Assembly (NCBI GenBank): GCA_947460345.1
Contig: CANHGM010000010.1
Location: 1 to 64,000 of the forward strand
Reading direction: 5' to 3'
Origin: Bacteroidota bacterium
Lineage (GTDB): Bacteria > Bacteroidota > Bacteroidia > UKL13-3
Length of the DNA stretch: 64,000 nt
Positions within the stretch are counted from its first letter, which is position 1. Every line of letters starts with the position of its first letter. Made by a program: the position numbers and the translations under genes. Under the pieces are notes generated by a model that made no database searches, was not told where the DNA came from, and saw only the letters and a program-made list of their open reading frames with translations. Shown piece by piece: positions 397 to 10,265 of the stretch.

Positions 397-517
397 AGGA
401 AGAGGTAGAACTGGGGTACGGAAGATTAGTAGGGGTGGGGATGTGTATAAAAAGTGAATATGGTATGGATAAGATATGGGTAGAAAATAAATAAAGAATA
501 CGTAATTGCAGTTTATT

Positions 518-3500
518 ATGAACCAAGGAATTTATGAAGAGTTAGTAACACAATTAGTATCAAGAAAATTAAATGCACTTGATAAAAATAAATTTTTAAT
601 TAAAGAAACAATCATAGATAAAGAAGAAGCTGCAAGTATTTTATCTCAACATTTATCAAATAGTTTTAAACATGCATTTACTTTAATAACAGGTGAACAA
701 CAAATTGAACAACAAATAGAAATTGCAAATAAAATCATTCGTTTTTTAAAAGAAGAATTAAAAAAGGAAGAATTTGAAGATGATTTAATCAATGTAGAAG
801 GAAAAGTATTAAAAGCGGTTTTTTCTAGAGTTGATGCTCATTTTTCAAATTTAGATTTACACTTAAAAGAAATAACTCCATATACCAGATTAACGCACAG
901 TGAATTATTTACAGGAGGTAATTTAGGATTATCTTTAGAAAGTGAGTTAAAAAAAGAAATTTTATCTGCAGATCGAATAGACTTACTTGTTTCTTTTATT
1001 AAATTTAAAGGAATAATTATATTAGAAAAGGAATTAAGAGAGTTTACAAAAAGAGGAGGGAAACTTAGGGTAATAACAACGACTTACATGGGGGCTTCTG
1101 ATTTTAAAGCAATACAATTATTATCTCAATTAGAAAACACAGAAGTAAAAATATCATATAACTCAGGTAATGAGAGATTACATGCTAAAGCATATTTGTT
1201 TTTTAGAAATAGTGGTTTTCATACAGGCTATATTGGTTCTTCAAATTTTTCTAGGTCAGCATTAACAGATGGACTAGAATGGAATTTAAAAATAACAACA
1301 AAAGAAGTAAGTCATATTATTGATAAGTTTCAAAAGACATTTGATGCTTATTGGTTAAATGATGAATTTGAAACATTTAATGAATTAATTCATAAAGAGA
1401 AATTAACAGATGCTCTAAAACAAGGAAAATTTTCAAAAGAATATGTAAGTAACGTATCTTATTTTGACATAAAACCATTTCCATATCAAAATGAAATTTT
1501 AGAAAAATTAGAAGTAGAAAGAACAGTACACAAACGGTATAGGAATTTATTAGTAGCTGCAACAGGAACCGGTAAAACGGTTATTTCTGCATTTGATTAC
1601 AAAAGATTTAAACAAGAAAACAAATCCGTTAAATTATTATTTCTTGCTCATAGAAAGGAGATTTTGGAGCAGTCCAGATATACATTTCAAGGTGTTTTAA
1701 AAGACAATAATTTTGGAGAATTATGGGTGGATGGTTTGGTGCCCAGTAATTTCGAATTTGTTTTTGCTTCAGTTCAAACATTGAATAATCAAATAAGTAA
1801 TTTGCAATTAACTCCAGAATATTACGATTTTATTATTATTGATGAATGTCATCATCAAACAGCAAATAGTTATAGAGAAGTTATAAATTATTTTAAACCT
1901 AAAATATTACTGGGCTTAACGGCCACTCCTGAGCGAATGGATGGTGGAGATATATTAGAAGATTTTTGCAGTAAAATAGCTGCCGAAATTAGATTGCCTG
2001 AAGCATTGAATAGAAAATTACTTTGTCCTTTCCAATATTTTGGAATTACTGACAGTATAGATTTATCAAATGTTGGTTGGGAAAGAGGCAGATATGTTGC
2101 TAGTGAATTGACAAACTTATATACTGCTAATGATAGAAGAATTGGAGAAATAATTCACAATTTAGAAAAGTATACGAAAGATGCAAAAGATTTAAGAGCA
2201 ATTGGGTTTTGTGTTTCAATGGAGCATGCAAAATTTATGGCAGAAAAATTTTTGCTAGCAGGTTTTAAGGCAGATTATTTAACAAGTGTAAATACTCAAA
2301 ATAGAGATTTGGTTAGAAAAAAATTAATCTCAAAAGAGATCAATTATTTGTTTGTTGTAGATATTTTTAATGAAGGAGTTGATATACCTGAAATAGATAC
2401 TGTCTTGTTTTTAAGACCAACTGAAAGTCTTACTGTTTTTCTACAACAGTTGGGAAGAGGGTTGCGATTGGCAGAGGGAAAAGACAGTCTAGCTGTTTTA
2501 GATTTTGTAGGCAACTCAAGACCAGAATATAATTTTGAAAATAAATATAGAGCCTTAATTGGAAAAACAACCACAACTGTAAGAAGTGAAATAGAAGATA
2601 ATTTTCCACACTTACCACTGGGTTGTTCAATTGTTTTAGAACAAAGAGCAAAAGAAAATATTTTGAACAATATAATCAATGCAACTTCTTTAAATAGAAA
2701 TCAAATAATATTAAAAATTAAGAATTTCAAACATCAAACAGCTTTACCATTAACACTTAAAAATTTTACAGAGTTTAATAATATTCCAATTCAAACGATA
2801 TATAAAAAAGATAGTTGGAAAAGATTATGTCAATTGGCTGGGGTTGTTAAAGATTTTGAAAATAAAAATGAAAAAAATATAGTTTCTGCTATAAAGAATA
2901 AATGGCTATCATCTAATTCACTAAGTTATTTTAGTTTTATTTTAAGCATTGCGAAAAAGGGATTTAGAATTGAAATTTCCGAGTTTAATGAAGTTGAACA
3001 AAGTATGCTTTTAATGCTTCATTATGATGTTTGGCAAAAAGCAGAAGGATTTAATTCTTTAAAAGAAAGCATTGCTGAAATTGGGAAAAATGAAAACCTA
3101 GTAGAGGAAATTATAGAAGTATTAGAAATACTAATAGACAAAATTGATTTTAAAGAAATAGATATTCAGCTACCTTATTCACAACCTTTAAAACTTCATG
3201 CTAGATATACAAGAGACCAAATATTAGCTGCTTTTAAACTTAGTTCCTTTAATTGGAAATCGCCCAGTAGAGAGGGGGTTGCTGAAAACCAAGATTTAAA
3301 TACTGAATTACTTTTTATCAATTTAATAAAATCAGAAGAGAAATTTTCACCCACAACAATGTATGATGACTATGCAGTGAATGAAACTTTATTTCATTGG
3401 CAAAGTCAAAATTCAGCAAGACCAGATTCAGGAAAAGGACTATCTTATATAAAACATCAAATGAATAATAAAATTATTTTATTGTTTATAAGAGAAAAAG

Positions 3501-3658
3501 CAGTTGATGAAAATAATAACACAATGGGTTATGTTTTTATAGGCGAAGCTAAGTTTAAAGATTATTATGGTTCTAAACCAATGAGTATTAATTGGGAACT
3601 TAATGAACCAATGCCTAATTATTTATATAAAGATTCATTTAAGTTAGCTATAGGGTAA
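518..3658 (+). CDS. PLD-nuclease / DEAH-box helicase / DUF3427 protein (defence-type)
   Basis: A 1046-residue multidomain protein. An HKD-type phospholipase-D nuclease motif (LHAKAYLF then GSSNFSRSAL) lies near residues 221-245. A superfamily 2 helicase core follows: Walker A ATGTGKT near 350, DECHH near 442, TATPERMDG near 468 and motif VI QLGRGLRL near 645. The C-terminal ~170 residues resemble DUF3427 (GEAKFKDYYGSKPMSINWEL). Proteins with this order are common in bacterial defence islands and probably unwind and cut foreign nucleic acid. The ATG at 518 is preferred over a TTG 12 bases upstream; no Shine-Dalgarno is visible. A strong terminator follows. Its nearest neighbours are a mobile element and an McrB-like operon, which supports a defence role, but the function is inferred. 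Confidence 0.88.
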   Translation: MNQGIYEELVTQLVSRKLNALDKNKFLIKETIIDKEEAASILSQHLSNSFKHAFTLITGEQQIEQQIEIANKIIRFLKEELKKEEFEDDLINVEGKVLKAVFSRVDAHFSNLDLHLKEITPYTRLTHSELFTGGNLGLSLESELKKEILSADRIDLLVSFIKFKGIIILEKELREFTKRGGKLRVITTTYMGASDFKAIQLLSQLENTEVKISYNSGNERLHAKAYLFFRNSGFHTGYIGSSNFSRSALTDGLEWNLKITTKEVSHIIDKFQKTFDAYWLNDEFETFNELIHKEKLTDALKQGKFSKEYVSNVSYFDIKPFPYQNEILEKLEVERTVHKRYRNLLVAATGTGKTVISAFDYKRFKQENKSVKLLFLAHRKEILEQSRYTFQGVLKDNNFGELWVDGLVPSNFEFVFASVQTLNNQISNLQLTPEYYDFIIIDECHHQTANSYREVINYFKPKILLGLTATPERMDGGDILEDFCSKIAAEIRLPEALNRKLLCPFQYFGITDSIDLSNVGWERGRYVASELTNLYTANDRRIGEIIHNLEKYTKDAKDLRAIGFCVSMEHAKFMAEKFLLAGFKADYLTSVNTQNRDLVRKKLISKEINYLFVVDIFNEGVDIPEIDTVLFLRPTESLTVFLQQLGRGLRLAEGKDSLAVLDFVGNSRPEYNFENKYRALIGKTTTTVRSEIEDNFPHLPLGCSIVLEQRAKENILNNIINATSLNRNQIILKIKNFKHQTALPLTLKNFTEFNNIPIQTIYKKDSWKRLCQLAGVVKDFENKNEKNIVSAIKNKWLSSNSLSYFSFILSIAKKGFRIEISEFNEVEQSMLLMLHYDVWQKAEGFNSLKESIAEIGKNENLVEEIIEVLEILIDKIDFKEIDIQLPYSQPLKLHARYTRDQILAAFKLSSFNWKSPSREGVAENQDLNTELLFINLIKSEEKFSPTTMYDDYAVNETLFHWQSQNSARPDSGKGLSYIKHQMNNKIILLFIREKAVDENNNTMGYVFIGEAKFKDYYGSKPMSINWELNEPMPNYLYKDSFKLAIG

Positions 3659-3660
3659 TT

Positions 3661-3742
3661 CCCCCATCAAACAAAAAACCCCAAGTTCTCACTCGGGTTT
3701 TTTTGTTATACCAATTCTGTAAATAAATTAGTTCAAAGATGC
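3661..3742. repeat. Left 155-bp direct repeat, first part (split by the insertion sequence)
   Basis: These 82 bases align at a constant offset with 10041-10122. There are three mismatches, all within the first 40 bases (terminator and its leader). From the TIR start at 3708 onward the copies are identical. The repeat resumes at 4979 after the insertion sequence. It therefore contains a terminator and the first 35 bases of the MITE-like element found complete at 10088-10248. Confidence 0.9.
3673..3704 (+). terminator. Intrinsic terminator of the helicase gene
   Basis: A6-CCCC on the left pairs with GGG-T7 on the right around a short loop that can itself pair AGT with ACT. The T tract follows directly. 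It starts 15 bases after the helicase stop, so transcription of the helicase probably ends here. A near-identical copy closes the McrB-like operon. Confidence 0.8.
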
Positions 3743-3934
3743 GGAGTAATGGACAAAAAAGTCCCTGTTTTGTAGATGTTTTGTTCAAGTGGACAAAATA
3801 GTCCCTGTTTTTAATAACTATTTCTTACAGTTCTTGTTCGATATATAAATTTGCTAAATCAATCCAAACGGACACAAGCTCTACTGGAGAGTAACTTGTT
3901 AGGGATAGTTTGATGGCTGACGAAAAAGTCAAGT

Positions 3935-3966
3935 TCAAATGGCAATCTATAATGGTTGCCATTTGA
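3935..3966 (-). terminator. Hairpin terminator of the IS transposase
   Basis: A perfect 11-bp inverted repeat (TCAAATGGCAA / TTGCCATTTGA) with a 10-base loop begins 16 bases after the transposase stop. On the minus strand a T-rich run follows after a short gap. It would insulate flanking DNA from transposase transcription. Confidence 0.6.
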
Positions 3967-3981
3967 CATTTTCAGAAGCCT

Positions 3982-4895
3982 CTATGCCTTAAAAAACTCA
4001 TCAATAAACTTCATCTTTCTCTTTATGGATAAACCATTGTGATTGCGAAGTTTATTTTTCAAATCGGCAAAATGACCATCAATTTCATTGGTGGTTTTGG
4101 GTATTTTTAATGGCATATTTTCATACCATGTAAACAGCCATTGTACGTTCACTTGTAAACTTCTGTAAGCACTTCTTAGTTTTTTATGGACATATCTTTT
4201 CCTGCCTTTTTCGTCTATTTTTCTTTCGTTTAAAAAGTCCATCCATTTGATATACCAAGCATTTAGACCACCTTCAAAACTCTCTTTATCTGTATGTGCC
4301 AACAGTAGGGTGTGCTCCCAAAGTTCTTTACTGGCTTGCATTTTCGGCTTCTTTGTTAAGTATCGTCTTACAATTGCTACTTGATGGAAATTACACATTT
4401 GCACAGGAATATCATTGCCAAATAATTGAAATAATCCTTTGCGCCCGTCACAAATAATACTTTGTATTTTAATACCTCGTTTTGAAATTTCTTCAATCCC
4501 TTTTAGGTACAATTGGTTGGTTTCTTGTTTAACATATTGCTTATACAAGATTGTACCTGTAAGGCTATCTTTAAAAACCATCACACCGAATGATCTACCA
4601 AAATAAGTTGTATCCATAAGAACATTAGCAATGCTTGGAAATGTTGTTTGGCAGCTTGTCTTAACTAAATCTATTTTACGCTGGATTGTTTTTATTGAAC
4701 ATCCAAATTTGTCTGCAAGTTGAGAATATGTTTGCTTACCTTTTGTATATTCTTGCCAAATAATATTCGAATCTAATCGAATTCCACCTTGAAACTTTTT
4801 ACCACAAGCAGTACATTTATATCGCTGTTTGCCATTTTGAATGCCCTTTTTGGTAACAATTTTGGATCCACAGAAAAAGCAGTTTTTTTATTCAT
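3982..4895 (-). CDS. IS256-like transposase with N-terminal zinc ribbon; start needs a -1 shift
   Basis: The main frame is open well upstream of the ATG at 4617. The upstream part encodes a zinc ribbon (CFFCGSK and YKCTACGKKF, two CxxC pairs) and a helix-turn-helix (TYSQLADKFGCSIKTIQRKI). The DDE core follows: MDTTYFG, IICDGRKG and a late glutamate in TTNEIDGHFADLK, matching IS256-like mutator transposases of the variant Zn-binding type. The only good start, ATG at 4895, lies one frame off. The frames join at an A7 tract (4883-4889) two codons in, giving about 304 residues after a -1 shift. This is either programmed or transcriptional slippage, or a one-base deletion that killed the gene. Starting at 4617 would lose the DNA-binding domain. 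Confidence 0.75.
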
Positions 4896-4978
4896 GACAT
4901 TTCATTTGCTTCAAAGGTATGCTAGGCAATACTTCTAAGAGATTTTAGGGACTTTTTTGTCCATTAACCCAAAGATGC

Positions 4979-5051
4979 ACAGTTATTTTTTGTCATACCG
5001 ATGAAAAAAATCTTTGCATAGCCATATCTATGGAAATTTTTTTTGAAGATG
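4979..5051. repeat. Left 155-bp direct repeat, second part, running into the McrB-like gene
   Basis: These 73 bases are identical to 10123-10195. The identity includes the start codon and first seven codons of the McrB-like gene, and stops exactly where the protein-specific sequence begins. Together with 3661-3742 it makes a 155-bp direct repeat. Confidence 0.92.
4990..5016 (+). promoter_or_regulatory. Candidate promoter of the McrB-like operon inside the repeat
   Basis: TTG at 4990-4992, 16 bases, then AATCTTTG at 5009-5016. This is one mismatch from the Bacteroidota -7 consensus TAnnTTTG with a short but tolerable spacer. The ATG at 5030 follows 13 bases later. The identical sequence exists in the right repeat. 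It is the only promoter-like sequence between the insertion sequence and the operon, so it probably drives it. Confidence 0.45.
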
Positions 5052-6736
5052 ATGGTAAATATGTTTTAAGTAAAATGTCTCAGTCGTTTTTGGATGGTAA
5101 ACTTTCCTATCCAGACTACTTAAAATACTACTGCTTAAACATAGAATTTCTTATAAATAATGAAGTAGTTCATCCTTTTTCAGAAATATTAGAAGTATTA
5201 AACGGCAATGAATTTGATAAAAATGAGATTGCTCAAAGGTGCGTAAAATTAGTGCCTATTGGTTCACCTATCAGTGTTATTGACTGTTTGCGACTATTTC
5301 TAAATAGATGTGTAGAGGCTGAATTGTTAATATTAAACGGTGGCAAATATAAATTAGCATATTCTTACAATTTATTAATTGGCTCATTAAACAAAAGTTC
5401 TTTTAGTCCGTTGGAATTTGAGCAAAAATTTATTTCAGGTGATCAAAAAATTGCTCAAAAGAATATTGTAACAGTTTTAATTGAAAGAGAAATTGCTCAG
5501 CTTTTTAAAAACTCATTTAATTTAATTACGAATAATTCTATTCCTTTAAAAACGAACAAAGGAAACTTTTCAACTCTAAGAGAAGGAAATTTTAAATTGG
5601 ATTTATTTCAGTCAAAAGCAGAAGAAGCCGGCTTTATATTTTCCCCTAAACTTATCCAACGCTTTGTTGCCTCTTTGTGCACCAAACCATTTGTTATTTG
5701 CAGTGGTCTTTCAGGTTCTGGCAAAACAAAATTGGCTCAAGCATTTGTGCAATGGATTTGTGAAGATGATACCCAATATAAAATAGTTCCTGTGGATGCA
5801 GATTGGACCAACCGTGAGCCATTGTTAGGCTATCCAAATGCATTAAATAAAGAAGAATATGTAAGCCCAGAAAATGGTGTATTAGATTTAATGATTCGTG
5901 CCAAACATAATATTGAGAATACAGAAGAACCAACAAAACCTTATTTCTTGATATTAGATGAGATGAATTTGAGTCACGTTGAACGATATTTTGCTGATTT
6001 TTTAAGTACCATGGAATCAGGTGATGTTATTCCATTGCATAAGATAGAAACGAAAGTCGGGAATGACCCTTATTATATACCCCAAACAATTAAATTGCCT
6101 AAGAACCTTTTTATCATTGGTACTGTAAATATTGATGAAACCACCTATATGTTTAGTCCAAAGGTTTTGGATAGAGCAAATACCATAGAATTTAGATTGA
6201 CTGAAGAAGATTTAGAAAAATATATTGCAAGTGATGTAAAACTAGACATGGAGTTGTTAAAAACTCAAGGAGCAAATATGTCTGACAGCTTTATGAAAAT
6301 GGCATTGCAAGAAACTAATAAGAATTTGAAACCATCAGAAATAGATTTAAAACTATTCTTTACTGAATTGAAAAAATCAGGGGCTGAATTTGGATATAGA
6401 ACAGCAAGCGAAATTGGAAGGTTAATGTATATGCTAAAAGAACTTGGCCAAGAAGGTGACAACTTACTTGATATTGCCATCATGCAGAAATTACTACCAA
6501 AATTGCACGGTTCAAGAAACAAGCTTACAAAAGTACTTCCCATTTTAGGTGGTTTTTGTTTGACAGACAATTCTAAAATTAAAGAAGATTACTTGGATAA
6601 ATTCGTTAGCAATCATTTATTAGAAGCTGATATTAAAGATGACAAAAACGTAAAATTCAAAATATCATTCGAAAAAATTTGCAGAATGTATAAAAATGCA
6701 GTTGAAAACGGTTTTGCAAGCTACGCTGAAGCATAA
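5030..6736 (+). CDS. McrB-like AAA+ GTPase/ATPase (COG1401 type)
   Basis: A 568-residue protein. The first ~190 residues are a recognition-type domain I cannot place. The AAA+ motor of the McrB family follows: Walker A GLSGSGKT near 226-233, Walker B FLILDEMNLSHVERYF near 308-323, and the sensor segment GTVNIDETTYMF with LDRANTIEF near 363-386. McrB proteins form rings that couple nucleotide hydrolysis to DNA translocation and activate a partner McrC nuclease. The first gene of a three-gene operon; the next starts 11 bases downstream. The first seven residues (MEIFFED) are encoded by the flanking repeat, so the native start may have been lost; the next in-frame ATG is at 5075. The substrate (modified DNA or other) cannot be read from the sequence. 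Confidence 0.87.
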   Translation: MEIFFEDDGKYVLSKMSQSFLDGKLSYPDYLKYYCLNIEFLINNEVVHPFSEILEVLNGNEFDKNEIAQRCVKLVPIGSPISVIDCLRLFLNRCVEAELLILNGGKYKLAYSYNLLIGSLNKSSFSPLEFEQKFISGDQKIAQKNIVTVLIEREIAQLFKNSFNLITNNSIPLKTNKGNFSTLREGNFKLDLFQSKAEEAGFIFSPKLIQRFVASLCTKPFVICSGLSGSGKTKLAQAFVQWICEDDTQYKIVPVDADWTNREPLLGYPNALNKEEYVSPENGVLDLMIRAKHNIENTEEPTKPYFLILDEMNLSHVERYFADFLSTMESGDVIPLHKIETKVGNDPYYIPQTIKLPKNLFIIGTVNIDETTYMFSPKVLDRANTIEFRLTEEDLEKYIASDVKLDMELLKTQGANMSDSFMKMALQETNKNLKPSEIDLKLFFTELKKSGAEFGYRTASEIGRLMYMLKELGQEGDNLLDIAIMQKLLPKLHGSRNKLTKVLPILGGFCLTDNSKIKEDYLDKFVSNHLLEADIKDDKNVKFKISFEKICRMYKNAVENGFASYAEA

Positions 6737-6747
6737 AATTTAATAAT

Positions 6748-7749
6748 ATGAAGGATATTCAGCCATTTACAAGTAGTTTTATAGAGCAAATTAAGCAGCT
6801 TTTACGCGAAGCTCAATATGGTGTTATTCGTTCTGTGAATTCAATTATGGTTCAAACATACTTTGAACTTGGTAAACGTATTGTTGAGCATGAACAAAAA
6901 GGTAAAGATTATTCGGATTATGGTGTATATCTTTTAGATAGATTATCCTCTGAATTGTCTAGTGAGTTTGGTAAAGGATTTTCAAAAAGAAAGCTAGAGC
7001 TTATTCGAAAATTCTATCTCACATATAAGATTGCGAAAACACCGTTTTCGCAATCTATTGGTTGGTCTCACTATTTACATCTGATTAGAATTGAAAAGGA
7101 TGAAGAGCGTAGGTTTTATGAATTAGAATCAGAAACAAACGGATGGAGTGTAAGAGAACTTGAACGTCAAATAAACACATCTTTATATGAACGTTTAAGT
7201 CTAAGTAAAGATAAATCTAGTGTAATGAATTTAGCAGCAAAGGGCCAAATTATAGAAAATGCAATTGATATTATTAAAGATCCGTATGTGTTAGAATTTC
7301 TGAATTTACCAGAATCAAAAACTTTCAATGAATCTGATTTGGAAAATGCAATTATCAATAAATTAGAGCACTTTTTACTAGAACTAGGCAAAGGATTTAC
7401 ATTTGTAGGACGTCAAGTAAGATTTACATTTGATGAAGAACATTTTCGAGTTGACTTGGTGTTTTATAATCGTTTGCTCAAATGCTTTGTATTAGTTGAT
7501 CTTAAGATAGGAAAACTAAAGCACCAAGACCTAGGTCAAATGCAGATGTATGTTAACTATTACGATAGATATATTAAGCTTGAAGAGGAAAATAAAACGA
7601 TAGGAATAATTTTATGTAAAGATAAAAAAGATACTATGGTAGAAATAACTTTGCCTGAAAATAACAATCAAATATTTGCAAGCAAGTATGAATTAATACT
7701 TCCAAGTAAGAAAGAATTGCAAGATCTAATTGACAATAAAACCAATTAG
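6748..7749 (+). CDS. YhcG/DUF1016 family PD-(D/E)XK nuclease
   Basis: A 333-residue protein. The N-terminal ~150 residues match the DUF1016 N-domain (ending in a region such as GWSVRELERQI), and the C-terminal half is the YhcG nuclease domain. The PD-(D/E)XK core is visible: FRVDLVFY near residue 235 and the DxK strand VLVDLKIGKL near 250, followed by QMQMYVNYYD. Family members are predicted DNA nucleases often found beside restriction genes. Here the gene sits between the McrB-like motor and the McrC-like nuclease with gaps of only 11 and 6 bases, so it is very likely co-translated and works with them. A second nuclease inside an McrBC-type operon is unusual. Confidence 0.87.
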   Translation: MKDIQPFTSSFIEQIKQLLREAQYGVIRSVNSIMVQTYFELGKRIVEHEQKGKDYSDYGVYLLDRLSSELSSEFGKGFSKRKLELIRKFYLTYKIAKTPFSQSIGWSHYLHLIRIEKDEERRFYELESETNGWSVRELERQINTSLYERLSLSKDKSSVMNLAAKGQIIENAIDIIKDPYVLEFLNLPESKTFNESDLENAIINKLEHFLLELGKGFTFVGRQVRFTFDEEHFRVDLVFYNRLLKCFVLVDLKIGKLKHQDLGQMQMYVNYYDRYIKLEEENKTIGIILCKDKKDTMVEITLPENNNQIFASKYELILPSKKELQDLIDNKTN

Positions 7750-7755
7750 AAATAG

Positions 7756-10020
7756 ATGATTTCATTAACTTCCATAACTATACCATTAGATCATATAGAA
7801 AAGGACTTATCTCTAACTATAGATGCTAAAAAAACGGATACTTTATTTGATGTTACAACTTCTGATGAAGAAGGCGAATGCAGATACCAACTTAAAGAAG
7901 GCTGTTTTTATGATTATGAATTTTCAATAGAAAAATACTCATTAAAAAAAACAGATTATATTCAACCGCATAGCAGAAAACAAAATTTAGGTGTTATCTC
8001 GCCTAATATTTATGTAGGATCCTTAACTTTTGAAATCTTCCATGCGGATAAACTAGATCAAATTTATAACATTAAATTAGAAGTTCAATCAGTCAAATCA
8101 GATTATAGAACAGACTATCGTTTTATGCTTGAAAGTATTACTGAAAAATGCACTGACCTAATAATGCAGATTGATTCTCCAATTACTCAACATTTTGAAA
8201 CAAACTTCGATACTGATAGTCAAACTTTATATCAACGATTTTCTTTTGTAAAATCATTGATTGATTCACTAGAATTTGAGGAAGCAATACAAAAAATTGT
8301 TTCCAACCCAACTACGAAATGGGAAGAGGAACATGAAGAAAAAGACATAAGAAGGATACGTAGATTCAATCAAAAGAACATAAACCAATTGGTTAATAAA
8401 AGCAACCGGATAGAAATAAGTAGTGATCATTTTTTGAACAAGTCTTATGGGTTAACCTCTATTCCTACAAAAATCGATAGCACACGAAAATCTGAATCTA
8501 TTGATACAGCTGAAAACCGTTTTATTAAACATGCCTTAGAAGAATTTTTATTTTTCTGCGAAAATTGCGAATTGAAATTTGAAAAATATTCAACTGCAAA
8601 ATTTGAATCTGGATTACTAGCAGCTAAAATTTCTTCTTTATTAAATCAATCATTTTTTAAACAAATATCAAGACCAAGTTCATTAAAGCTAAATAGTCCT
8701 GTACTTCAAAGAAAAAGCGGGTATAGAGAAGTGTTGAATGCTTGGTTGAAATTTGACTTAGCAGCCAAGTTAATTTGGAAAGGAGGAGACAATGTATATG
8801 AAGCAGGTAAAAAGGATATTGCAACACTTTACGAGTATTGGTTGTTTTTTATCTTGTTAGAATTATTAAAAGATGTATTTGATATAGAACCAAAAAGTAT
8901 TGCAGAATTGATTCAATATGATAAAGGGCAATTATCATTAAATTTAAAACAAGGAACAGCAATAGCTTTGAAAGGAGTGTATAAAACTCCAACAAGAAAA
9001 TTAAATATACAGTTTTCTTATAACCGCTCATTTGGTGGTGGAAAAACTTTTCCTCATTCTGGCAGTTATACAACAACATTGAGGCCTGATTATAGTTTGT
9101 CAATTTGGCCTTCTGAAATAAAGGATGCAGAGGAAGCAGAAATAAAGGAACTAATTTCTCACATACATTTTGATGCAAAGTATAAAGTAAACAATTTTTA
9201 TGATTTAGTAAATGAAACTCAAGATGAACTGAGTATGGACAAGGAAAATGAGCGAAAGGGGACATTTAAAAATGTAGATTTGCTGAAAATGCATGCCTAC
9301 AAAGATGCTATTAGAAGAACTGGCGGTGCTTATGTTTTATATCCGGGAGAAGGGAAGAATGAGCCTTTTAGAGGCTTTCATGAGTTGATTCCTGGGCTAG
9401 GTGCTTTTGTAATTAAACCTAATAAAAACGATAAGGATAAAAAACATTTAAAATCATTTATTAAAAAAGTAATAGCAAACTTTATTGACAGAGCATCTCA
9501 ACGAGAACATACTGCTATTAAAATATATGACATTCATAAAAACAACAAACACGATAATGACGTATTGAATGAACAATTGCCAGAATATATTAGCAATAAA
9601 AAACTAATACCTAGTGAAACATTTGTATTGGTTGGATACTATAAAAACGAAACCCATTTAAATTGGATAAAAGAGAATGGTCTTTATAATGTTCGATATG
9701 GTGAAAAATATAATTTAAGTTCAACAGAAATCGGGGCTCAATATATACTTCTATATACTAAAGGTCAAACAGAGTCATCTTTGTTTTTTAAGCTCAAAAA
9801 CAATAGTGCAAAAGTTTATACAAAATCTGAATTAGAGAAAGACTTAAAATATAAGACTACTCCAAGCCAAGAAATGTATTTAGTATACCAACTTGAAAAA
9901 GAATGTGAGAAGGAATTTGAAAGCATAAGTGTTGATTTATCAAAGCTAGAAAGACTTGGAGAAAATAAAAGACCATTAGCAATTAGTTTAGAAAAACTTT
10001 TAAAATCTAAAGTTAAATAA
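7756..10020 (+). CDS. DUF2357 (McrC-like, COG1700) nuclease partner
   Basis: A 754-residue protein of the DUF2357 family. The N-terminal ~200 residues look beta-rich, then comes a helical linker. The C-terminal half is a PD-(D/E)XK nuclease: RPDYSLSIWP near residue 443, HFDAKYKV near 473, and the typical segment HAYKDAIRRTGGAYVLYPGE. DUF2357 proteins are the usual companions of COG1401 McrB-like motors and are considered McrC equivalents. It is the last gene of the operon, six bases after the YhcG gene, and is followed by a terminator. The protein is full length for the family and both active-site motifs are intact. A role in DNA restriction or abortive defence is inferred. Confidence 0.86.
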   Translation: MISLTSITIPLDHIEKDLSLTIDAKKTDTLFDVTTSDEEGECRYQLKEGCFYDYEFSIEKYSLKKTDYIQPHSRKQNLGVISPNIYVGSLTFEIFHADKLDQIYNIKLEVQSVKSDYRTDYRFMLESITEKCTDLIMQIDSPITQHFETNFDTDSQTLYQRFSFVKSLIDSLEFEEAIQKIVSNPTTKWEEEHEEKDIRRIRRFNQKNINQLVNKSNRIEISSDHFLNKSYGLTSIPTKIDSTRKSESIDTAENRFIKHALEEFLFFCENCELKFEKYSTAKFESGLLAAKISSLLNQSFFKQISRPSSLKLNSPVLQRKSGYREVLNAWLKFDLAAKLIWKGGDNVYEAGKKDIATLYEYWLFFILLELLKDVFDIEPKSIAELIQYDKGQLSLNLKQGTAIALKGVYKTPTRKLNIQFSYNRSFGGGKTFPHSGSYTTTLRPDYSLSIWPSEIKDAEEAEIKELISHIHFDAKYKVNNFYDLVNETQDELSMDKENERKGTFKNVDLLKMHAYKDAIRRTGGAYVLYPGEGKNEPFRGFHELIPGLGAFVIKPNKNDKDKKHLKSFIKKVIANFIDRASQREHTAIKIYDIHKNNKHDNDVLNEQLPEYISNKKLIPSETFVLVGYYKNETHLNWIKENGLYNVRYGEKYNLSSTEIGAQYILLYTKGQTESSLFFKLKNNSAKVYTKSELEKDLKYKTTPSQEMYLVYQLEKECEKEFESISVDLSKLERLGENKRPLAISLEKLLKSKVK

Positions 10021-10040: not shown

Positions 10041-10195
10041 TCCCCAACAAACAAAAAACCCCAAGTTCTCACTCGGGGTTTTTTGTTATACCAATTCTGT
10101 AAATAAATTAGTTCAAAGATGCACAGTTATTTTTTGTCATACCGATGAAAAAAATCTTTGCATAGCCATATCTATGGAAATTTTTTTTGAAGATG
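10041..10195. repeat. Right 155-bp direct repeat (uninterrupted copy)
   Basis: This is the intact copy of the repeat split by the insertion sequence at 3661-5051. It differs at three positions near its start and is identical over the last 108 bases. It contains a terminator, the left TIR of the MITE-like element, a promoter-like stretch and a 14-codon open frame (10174-10218, beginning MEIFFED) that shares its start with the McrB-like protein. Confidence 0.92.
10053..10084 (+). terminator. Intrinsic terminator of the McrB-like operon
   Basis: A6-CCCC pairs with GGGG-T6 around a 12-base loop, 33 bases after the DUF2357 stop. It is the same terminator as at 3673-3704 with one base more perfect pairing. 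Confidence 0.82.
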
Positions 10196-10248
10196 GAGTG
10201 GCAAAAAAGAACAAGTAGATTGGGCTAATTTATTTACAGTATTGGTAT
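10088..10248. mobile_element. 161-bp MITE-like element with 24-bp terminal inverted repeats
   Basis: The 24-bp ends at 10088-10111 and 10225-10248 are inverted copies with one mismatch; the tips read ATACCAAT and ATTGGTAT and the inner ends TAAATAAATTAG and CTAATTTATTTA. The interior codes for no transposase. A target duplication is not obvious (flanks are T-rich). The first 108 bases also occur, identical, upstream of and into the McrB-like gene, where the right end is missing. Which transposase mobilises it is unknown; its ends do not resemble those of the IS at 3743-4970. Confidence 0.75.
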
Positions 10249-10265
10249 TTAAAGTGTGTGTTCTG

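Follow-up and report, generated by a model that had tools for sequence, protein, structure and literature searches.

The McrB-like operon and the repeat at its borders

The window analysed here is a stretch of 64,000 nucleotides that opens at position 1 of its contig. Towards this end, a gene on the forward strand (506–3658, with a TTG start in the ORF list) encodes a type IV restriction-like protein with PLD, helicase and DUF3427 domains (PADLOC mREase_IV, E 3.4e-230; Pfam PLDc_2, ResIII and DUF3427). Downstream of it, and co-oriented with it, lies an operon of three forward-strand genes, all open at full length. The first encodes a McrB-like AAA+ protein of 568 aa (5030–6736) and appears, from comparison with a longer homologue, to be 5′-truncated by ~70 codons; the second encodes a YhcG/DUF1016-type PD-(D/E)XK protein (6748–7749; Pfam YhcG_C 1.9e-58, DUF1016_N 9.8e-41) and the third a McrC-like protein (7756–10020). 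In combining an AAA+ McrB-like ATPase with a McrC-like nuclease of the DUF2357 type, the operon resembles type IV McrBC systems, CoCoNuTs included, as these are described in PMC11090510: the McrC-like protein matches Pfam DUF2357 (1.6e-39) and PDDEXK_7 (1.4e-27), with the AAA match of its partner (AAA_22, E 2e-4) below the Pfam cut-off. This likeness is one of gene content, and it is incomplete in that the N domain in the window is of another type and truncated. The longer homologue, L029, scored 1.4e-6 against the PRK11331 McrB model, far below the cut-off of that model. An operon with the same gene order as the window occurs in another genome, G007 (identities of 74%, 81% and 71%). Here too (L040, 16940–17944) the YhcG/DUF1016-type gene is placed between the McrB-like and McrC-like genes, which are adjacent at L029.

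A repeat of 152 bases is found on both sides of the operon. Behind the operon it comprises a terminator-like hairpin (10044–10086) and the first 109 nt of a complete 165-nt palindromic element (10087–10251, forward strand). Ahead of the operon, once an insertion sequence is left out, 3664–3742 plus 4979–5051 matches 10044–10195 at 150 of 152 positions. This upstream copy consists of the terminator-like hairpin (3664–3706, equal to 10044–10086 except for two bases, and detected by the terminator scan in its minus-strand form only), the left end of the palindromic element ahead of the insertion sequence (3707–3742, forward strand) and the remainder (4979–5051, forward strand), in which the element is cut off after nucleotide 109 of 165. 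Both mismatches lie in the terminator part and, since one of them (3698, T versus G) falls in the stem, the downstream copy would be the better candidate for the original. In a genome search, all 82 bases of 4970–5051 were identical to 10114–10195 (E 6.9e-37, far above chance). As the first-pass annotation had claimed, the ATG at 5030 and codons 1–7 (MEIFFED; ATG GAA ATT TTT TTT GAA GAT) lie inside the repeat, the second copy of which opens with the same codons a 14-codon mini-ORF, MEIFFEDGVAKKNK (10174–10218, forward strand), and the sequence specific to the gene begins where repeat identity stops, at 5051. This is the first base of codon 8, so that the start codon, codons 2–7 and one further base (5030–5051, forward strand) are repeat-derived. 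The next in-frame ATG was likewise confirmed at 5075; ahead of the start at 5030, the frame contains no ATG, GTG or TTG as far back as the stop at 4946.

The insertion sequence that splits the upstream copy (3743–4969, minus strand) is a 1.2 kb element of the Mutator type, with inverted ends (TAATGGACAAAAAAGTCCCT) that match at 20 of 20 positions. It is flanked by a target duplication of 8–9 bp (CAAAGATGC; 3734–3742 on the left and 4970–4978 on the right, both forward strand), and a 9-bp duplication agrees with the uninterrupted repeat copy. The ends are supported by a relative in G005 (contig C23), since this matches nearly the whole of the 1,228-base query (3742–4969), with 76% identity over positions 4–1228. 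Because the copy is continuous once the insertion is left out, the insertion sequence would have arrived after the repeat was copied. The repeat identity recognized by the first-pass annotation stands for the upstream copy, but the greater length of the repeat had been missed and the insertion sequence, which could itself affect expression, had gone unmentioned. The transposase extends from 3982 to ~4895 on the minus strand (Transposase_mut E 8e-4, below the Pfam cut-off). Its start, ATGAATAAAAAAACTGC (window 4880–4895, minus strand), is offset by −1 from the main frame. The A7 run and the out-of-frame ATG recur in two of three relatives (L060, L061 and L062), the third being open in frame there; this makes slippage or programmed frameshifting more likely than a broken gene, and the designation as a pseudogene was dropped.

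The 165-nt element at 10087–10251 is an imperfect palindrome along its whole length, with a 71% match to its own reverse complement and an RNA fold of −58.4 kcal/mol (z −10.1); Rfam returned nothing near the gathering score. It has terminal inverted repeats, is short and carries no transposase gene, all of which are features of MITEs. Several dispersed copies, also expected of MITEs, were not found: the 3.0-Mb genome holds only two, both at the McrB-like operon locus. By eye, no clear duplication beyond TA or TTA surrounds the complete element. Because both copies carry the same terminator outside the palindrome, the second looks like the product of segmental duplication rather than of transposition, and for this reason the label ‘MITE-like’, given to the repeat in the first-pass annotation, is doubtful. 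Related sequences were detected in two other genomes of the family with no McrB-like gene nearby. In G016, 44 of 50 core bases of the palindrome lie between two genes, one of the aconitase type and one for a small lipoprotein-like protein, and in G003 the ends of the element are intergenic, adjoining an ssb-type gene (neighbours read from translations). Since core and ends occur there away from any McrB-like gene, the repeat is very probably not a piece of this gene. The palindromes at these loci (L006, 1419–1611, in G016; L007, 1350–1424, in G003) differ in length and have TATACCAAT-type ends; perhaps the element belongs to a family of hairpins in this order that is low in copy number and whose inner parts can be exchanged. 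A match in G053 (L008; 28/32) lies within an unrelated coding gene and was taken as chance.

We also asked whether the terminator-hairpin had been, from the outset, the tail of the type IV gene. A search with the type IV protein gave some match in 103 of 147 genomes, and eight loci were obtained, one of them the window's own. The terminator-hairpin was absent at 7/7 homologue loci examined in other genomes, and this origin was rejected; three short hits (E 0.010, 0.033 and 0.035) were taken as chance.

A longer homologue of the McrB-like protein

The McrB-like protein was sought in 196 genomes, 17 of which, own genome included, gave a match. Four of the five best non-self matches align only from residues 156–180 on. 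The relative in G186 aligns in two pieces (158–245 and 249–568), and those in G101 and G164 carry an MrcB_N domain instead of the window-type N domain. As the relatives in G007, G101, G147, G164 and G186 have other N domains, they were set aside as judges of the start. In G007, the open frame of the McrB-like gene begins after a stop ~100 bases from the contig end and its first residues do not align; by eye, a preceding frame resembles the tail of a domain of this kind and then meets a stop. No intact N domain is in view there (L040, 19100–19463; by eye).

When the genome_contigs collection was scanned with residues 1–190, one locus was confirmed among 60 candidate stretches. This locus, L029 (JAGFJA010000046.1, a Saprospiraceae MAG), holds an ORF of 621 aa at 3901–5766, which begins just after the preceding gene ends at 3895, an ordinary operon start. 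The identity to the window protein is 60% by tblastn (residues 3–568) and 62% in alignment A1. Across the junction, L029 reads IGIYYEEDGKYVLS / AREIGIYYEEDGKYVLS where the window reads MEIFFEDDGKYVLS. Because L029 has an N-terminal extension of ~70 residues relative to window residue 1 (the gapped alignment gives 69), about 70 native codons appear to be missing from the window; by this comparison, the McrB-like gene is 5′-truncated and fused in frame to the repeat. L029 is the only homologue found to share the adjoining N domain, and it does not begin at MEIFFED; no homologue was found to open with these seven residues, the similar stretch of L029 being internal. The proposal of the first-pass annotation that the native 5′ end had been replaced is borne out by this start elsewhere, but its placing of the native start near residue 16 is ruled out, as L029 runs ~70 residues further.

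Since only one homologue with the N domain was found, a gain of 70 codons in L029 instead of a loss in the window is a formal possibility. No displaced 5′ fragment was found elsewhere in the assembly, where a query with the missing codons finds one place only. The N domain was found in 1 of 395 genomes of the phylum and 1 of 64 of the order, in each case own genome only, in 0 of 394 genomes of the class in a draw that held no positive control, and in none of the viral contigs, plasmids or phages. A match in G159 (L024), to an unrelated surface-type protein, was discarded as chance. Comparison of the L029 N domain, of roughly 240 residues, with solved structures and Pfam gave nothing useful, and a structure model of L029 was set aside because at a pLDDT of 41 it cannot define the lost domain; that the lost part was a winged-helix-like unit is a guess.

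Origin of the join

The repeat identity, the junction, the insertion with its target duplication and the longer homologue are the observed footing of the following account, which as a whole we hold to be probable. The ancestor gene, like L029, would have had ~70 further 5′ codons. The terminator-plus-hairpin stretch now at 10044–10195 would have been copied and joined to this gene at about native codon 76, at a point of mutual resemblance between the repeat (ATTTTTTTTGAAGATG) and the gene as seen in L029 (ATTTATTATGAAGAAGATG), and in the frame of the mini-ORF present by chance in the repeat. This step would have removed the native promoter and start along with ~70 codons, and the insertion sequence would later have landed inside the new upstream repeat copy. 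Translated in the frame of the gene, five residues of the repeat resemble the native protein (IFFED versus IYYEE). The in-register peptide similarity across the junction has a score of 21, and 40 of 127,760 control positions in the window scored at least as high; past those five residues it falls to chance level (9%). Probably, this short chance similarity guided the join and also put the mini-ORF in frame. The direction of copying, the guidance of the join by similarity, the order of events and the functional consequence are what we infer from these observations. As to the route, a deletion, a template switch or recombination involving a 5.1-kb unit, either duplicated or circular, would each fit.

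A rival to this account on the route of joining holds that mcrB′-yhcG-duf2357, with terminator and hairpin, forms a composite unit that was brought in or reshuffled when copies of the terminator-hairpin recombined, for instance through integration of a 5.1-kb circle or through tandem duplication followed by deletion. Such a unit would be consistent with the direct repeats (3664–5051 without the insertion, and 10044–10195) that flank the operon and extend beyond the palindrome, and with the absence of the terminator-hairpin after the seven type IV homologues and, by eye, after the G007 operon; however, neither a circle, an empty site nor a second unit was seen, and plain copying would look alike, which leaves this route conceivable but doubtful. 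It has also to be asked whether the repeat carries a piece of the gene, so that the codons would be native and captured by the hairpin. The similarity to L029 does reach slightly into the repeat (IA....IFFED versus IA....IYYEE), and profile matches begin at 5018 and 5006, but the palindrome core in G016 lies away from any McrB-like gene, the similarity past five residues is near chance, and the complete copy runs past the junction into its own palindrome arm, so that such a capture seems quite improbable. An assembly artefact might be suspected in a draft of 76 contigs with a repeat common to two places 5.1 kb apart. Yet a misjoin within the repeat should swap whole flanks and create no new junction at the repeat end, and for that reason the repeat next to the gene is expected in reads either way; we consider an artefact very improbable.

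Expression, function and precedent

For the truncated gene joined to a copied repeat, the source of expression is a separate matter. A promoter-like box upstream of the start had been noted in the first-pass annotation. Upstream of the ATG, the best match to a Bacteroidota-type promoter has 8 of 10 consensus bases, a match reached or exceeded in 29% of 3,786 AT-matched window segments, and a sigma-70 scan listed no site in the repeat. The box is thus not above chance, and a promoter in the repeat was not supported. The operon is separated from the upstream gene by the terminator-like hairpin, with its one changed stem base, and by the antisense insertion sequence. Judging from this layout, expression of the operon, if any, must start in the 60 repeat bases ahead of the ATG, in the insertion-sequence end or upstream, by way of the terminator. 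A rival that concerns function, and to which the structural account is common, is that the truncation killed the McrB-like protein and that the operon is a remnant decaying behind terminator and insertion sequence. The loss of promoter and ~70 codons, the hairpin upstream with an insertion between it and the gene, the lack of a promoter signal above chance and the state of the same-family G007 operon, also without an intact N domain in view, make this a serious possibility, if not quite the favoured one, given that all three operon genes are open and that, with 2 of 152 bases differing between the repeat copies, the event may simply be recent.

According to PMC1459862, the specific DNA binding of McrB is located at its N-terminus, and the LlaJI subunit that binds the target is the McrB-like R1. 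The protein in the window, if made, would lack the first part of its N-terminal half, so that target recognition would most likely be altered or lost. LlaJI consists of R1, a PD-(D/E)XK subunit (R2) and a methyltransferase (PMC1459862); the window operon likewise has a McrB-like subunit with a variable N-terminal half, and an adjoining PD-(D/E)XK subunit. Whereas in LlaJI the methyltransferase is in the cassette, the window operon has none alongside, and a YhcG-type gene stands between the two subunits. No cognate cytosine methyltransferase was found among the operon genes or as the preceding gene, on a contig that begins at position 1. At L029 the order is a C5-type methyltransferase gene, one further gene, the McrB-like gene and the start of a DUF2357-type gene, and in G164 and G186 a cytosine methyltransferase is again upstream, as in L029 and LlaJI. 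In the window's own genome, the closest relative of the L029 methyltransferase (79%) lies on contig C45, next to another set of genes. At this place (L047, 221–7771), the methyltransferase and its neighbour are 79% and 76% identical to the pair upstream of the L029 McrB-like gene and precede a HATPase gene and two further large genes, a different effector set. It is improbable, in our judgement, that the truncation was adaptive, in the sense that a LlaJI-like subunit would have gained new or relaxed specificity and a hairpin start, in an operon that could be lost or amplified as one 5.1-kb unit. That reading would combine the loss of ~70 N-terminal residues with separation from the cognate methyltransferase, in a unit bounded by the 152-bp terminator-hairpin repeats.

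That a repeat may donate the first codons of a gene, and possibly a promoter, has already been published for MITEAba12 of Acinetobacter, as described in PMC6382973. A copy of this repeat with inverted ends supplies the first four codons (MQQS) of its neighbour and lies at a distance from which it could give a promoter; transcription from one end is reported (PMC6382973). MITEAba12 is mobile and present in multiple copies, 40% of which have target duplications (PMC6382973), whereas the window repeat has two copies, one of them truncated, with a common terminator outside the palindrome. In contrast to that case, the gene in the window is shortened by ~70 codons, and no promoter signal in its repeat stands above chance; what the present locus adds is the large truncation and the later insertion. 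Neither this locus nor this fusion was found in a word-based literature search, which is not proof of absence. As a genome accident, the event is neat but of an ordinary kind. Its value is that it shows clearly, and probably not long after the fact, how a gene obtained a new start codon from a repeat, with the copies, the longer homologue and the later insertion all visible. For annotation, it is a warning against taking the 568-aa McrB-like protein as full length. For defence biology, by the work on McrB and R1.LlaJI described in PMC1459862, it would represent a natural truncation of the target-binding half of such a protein.
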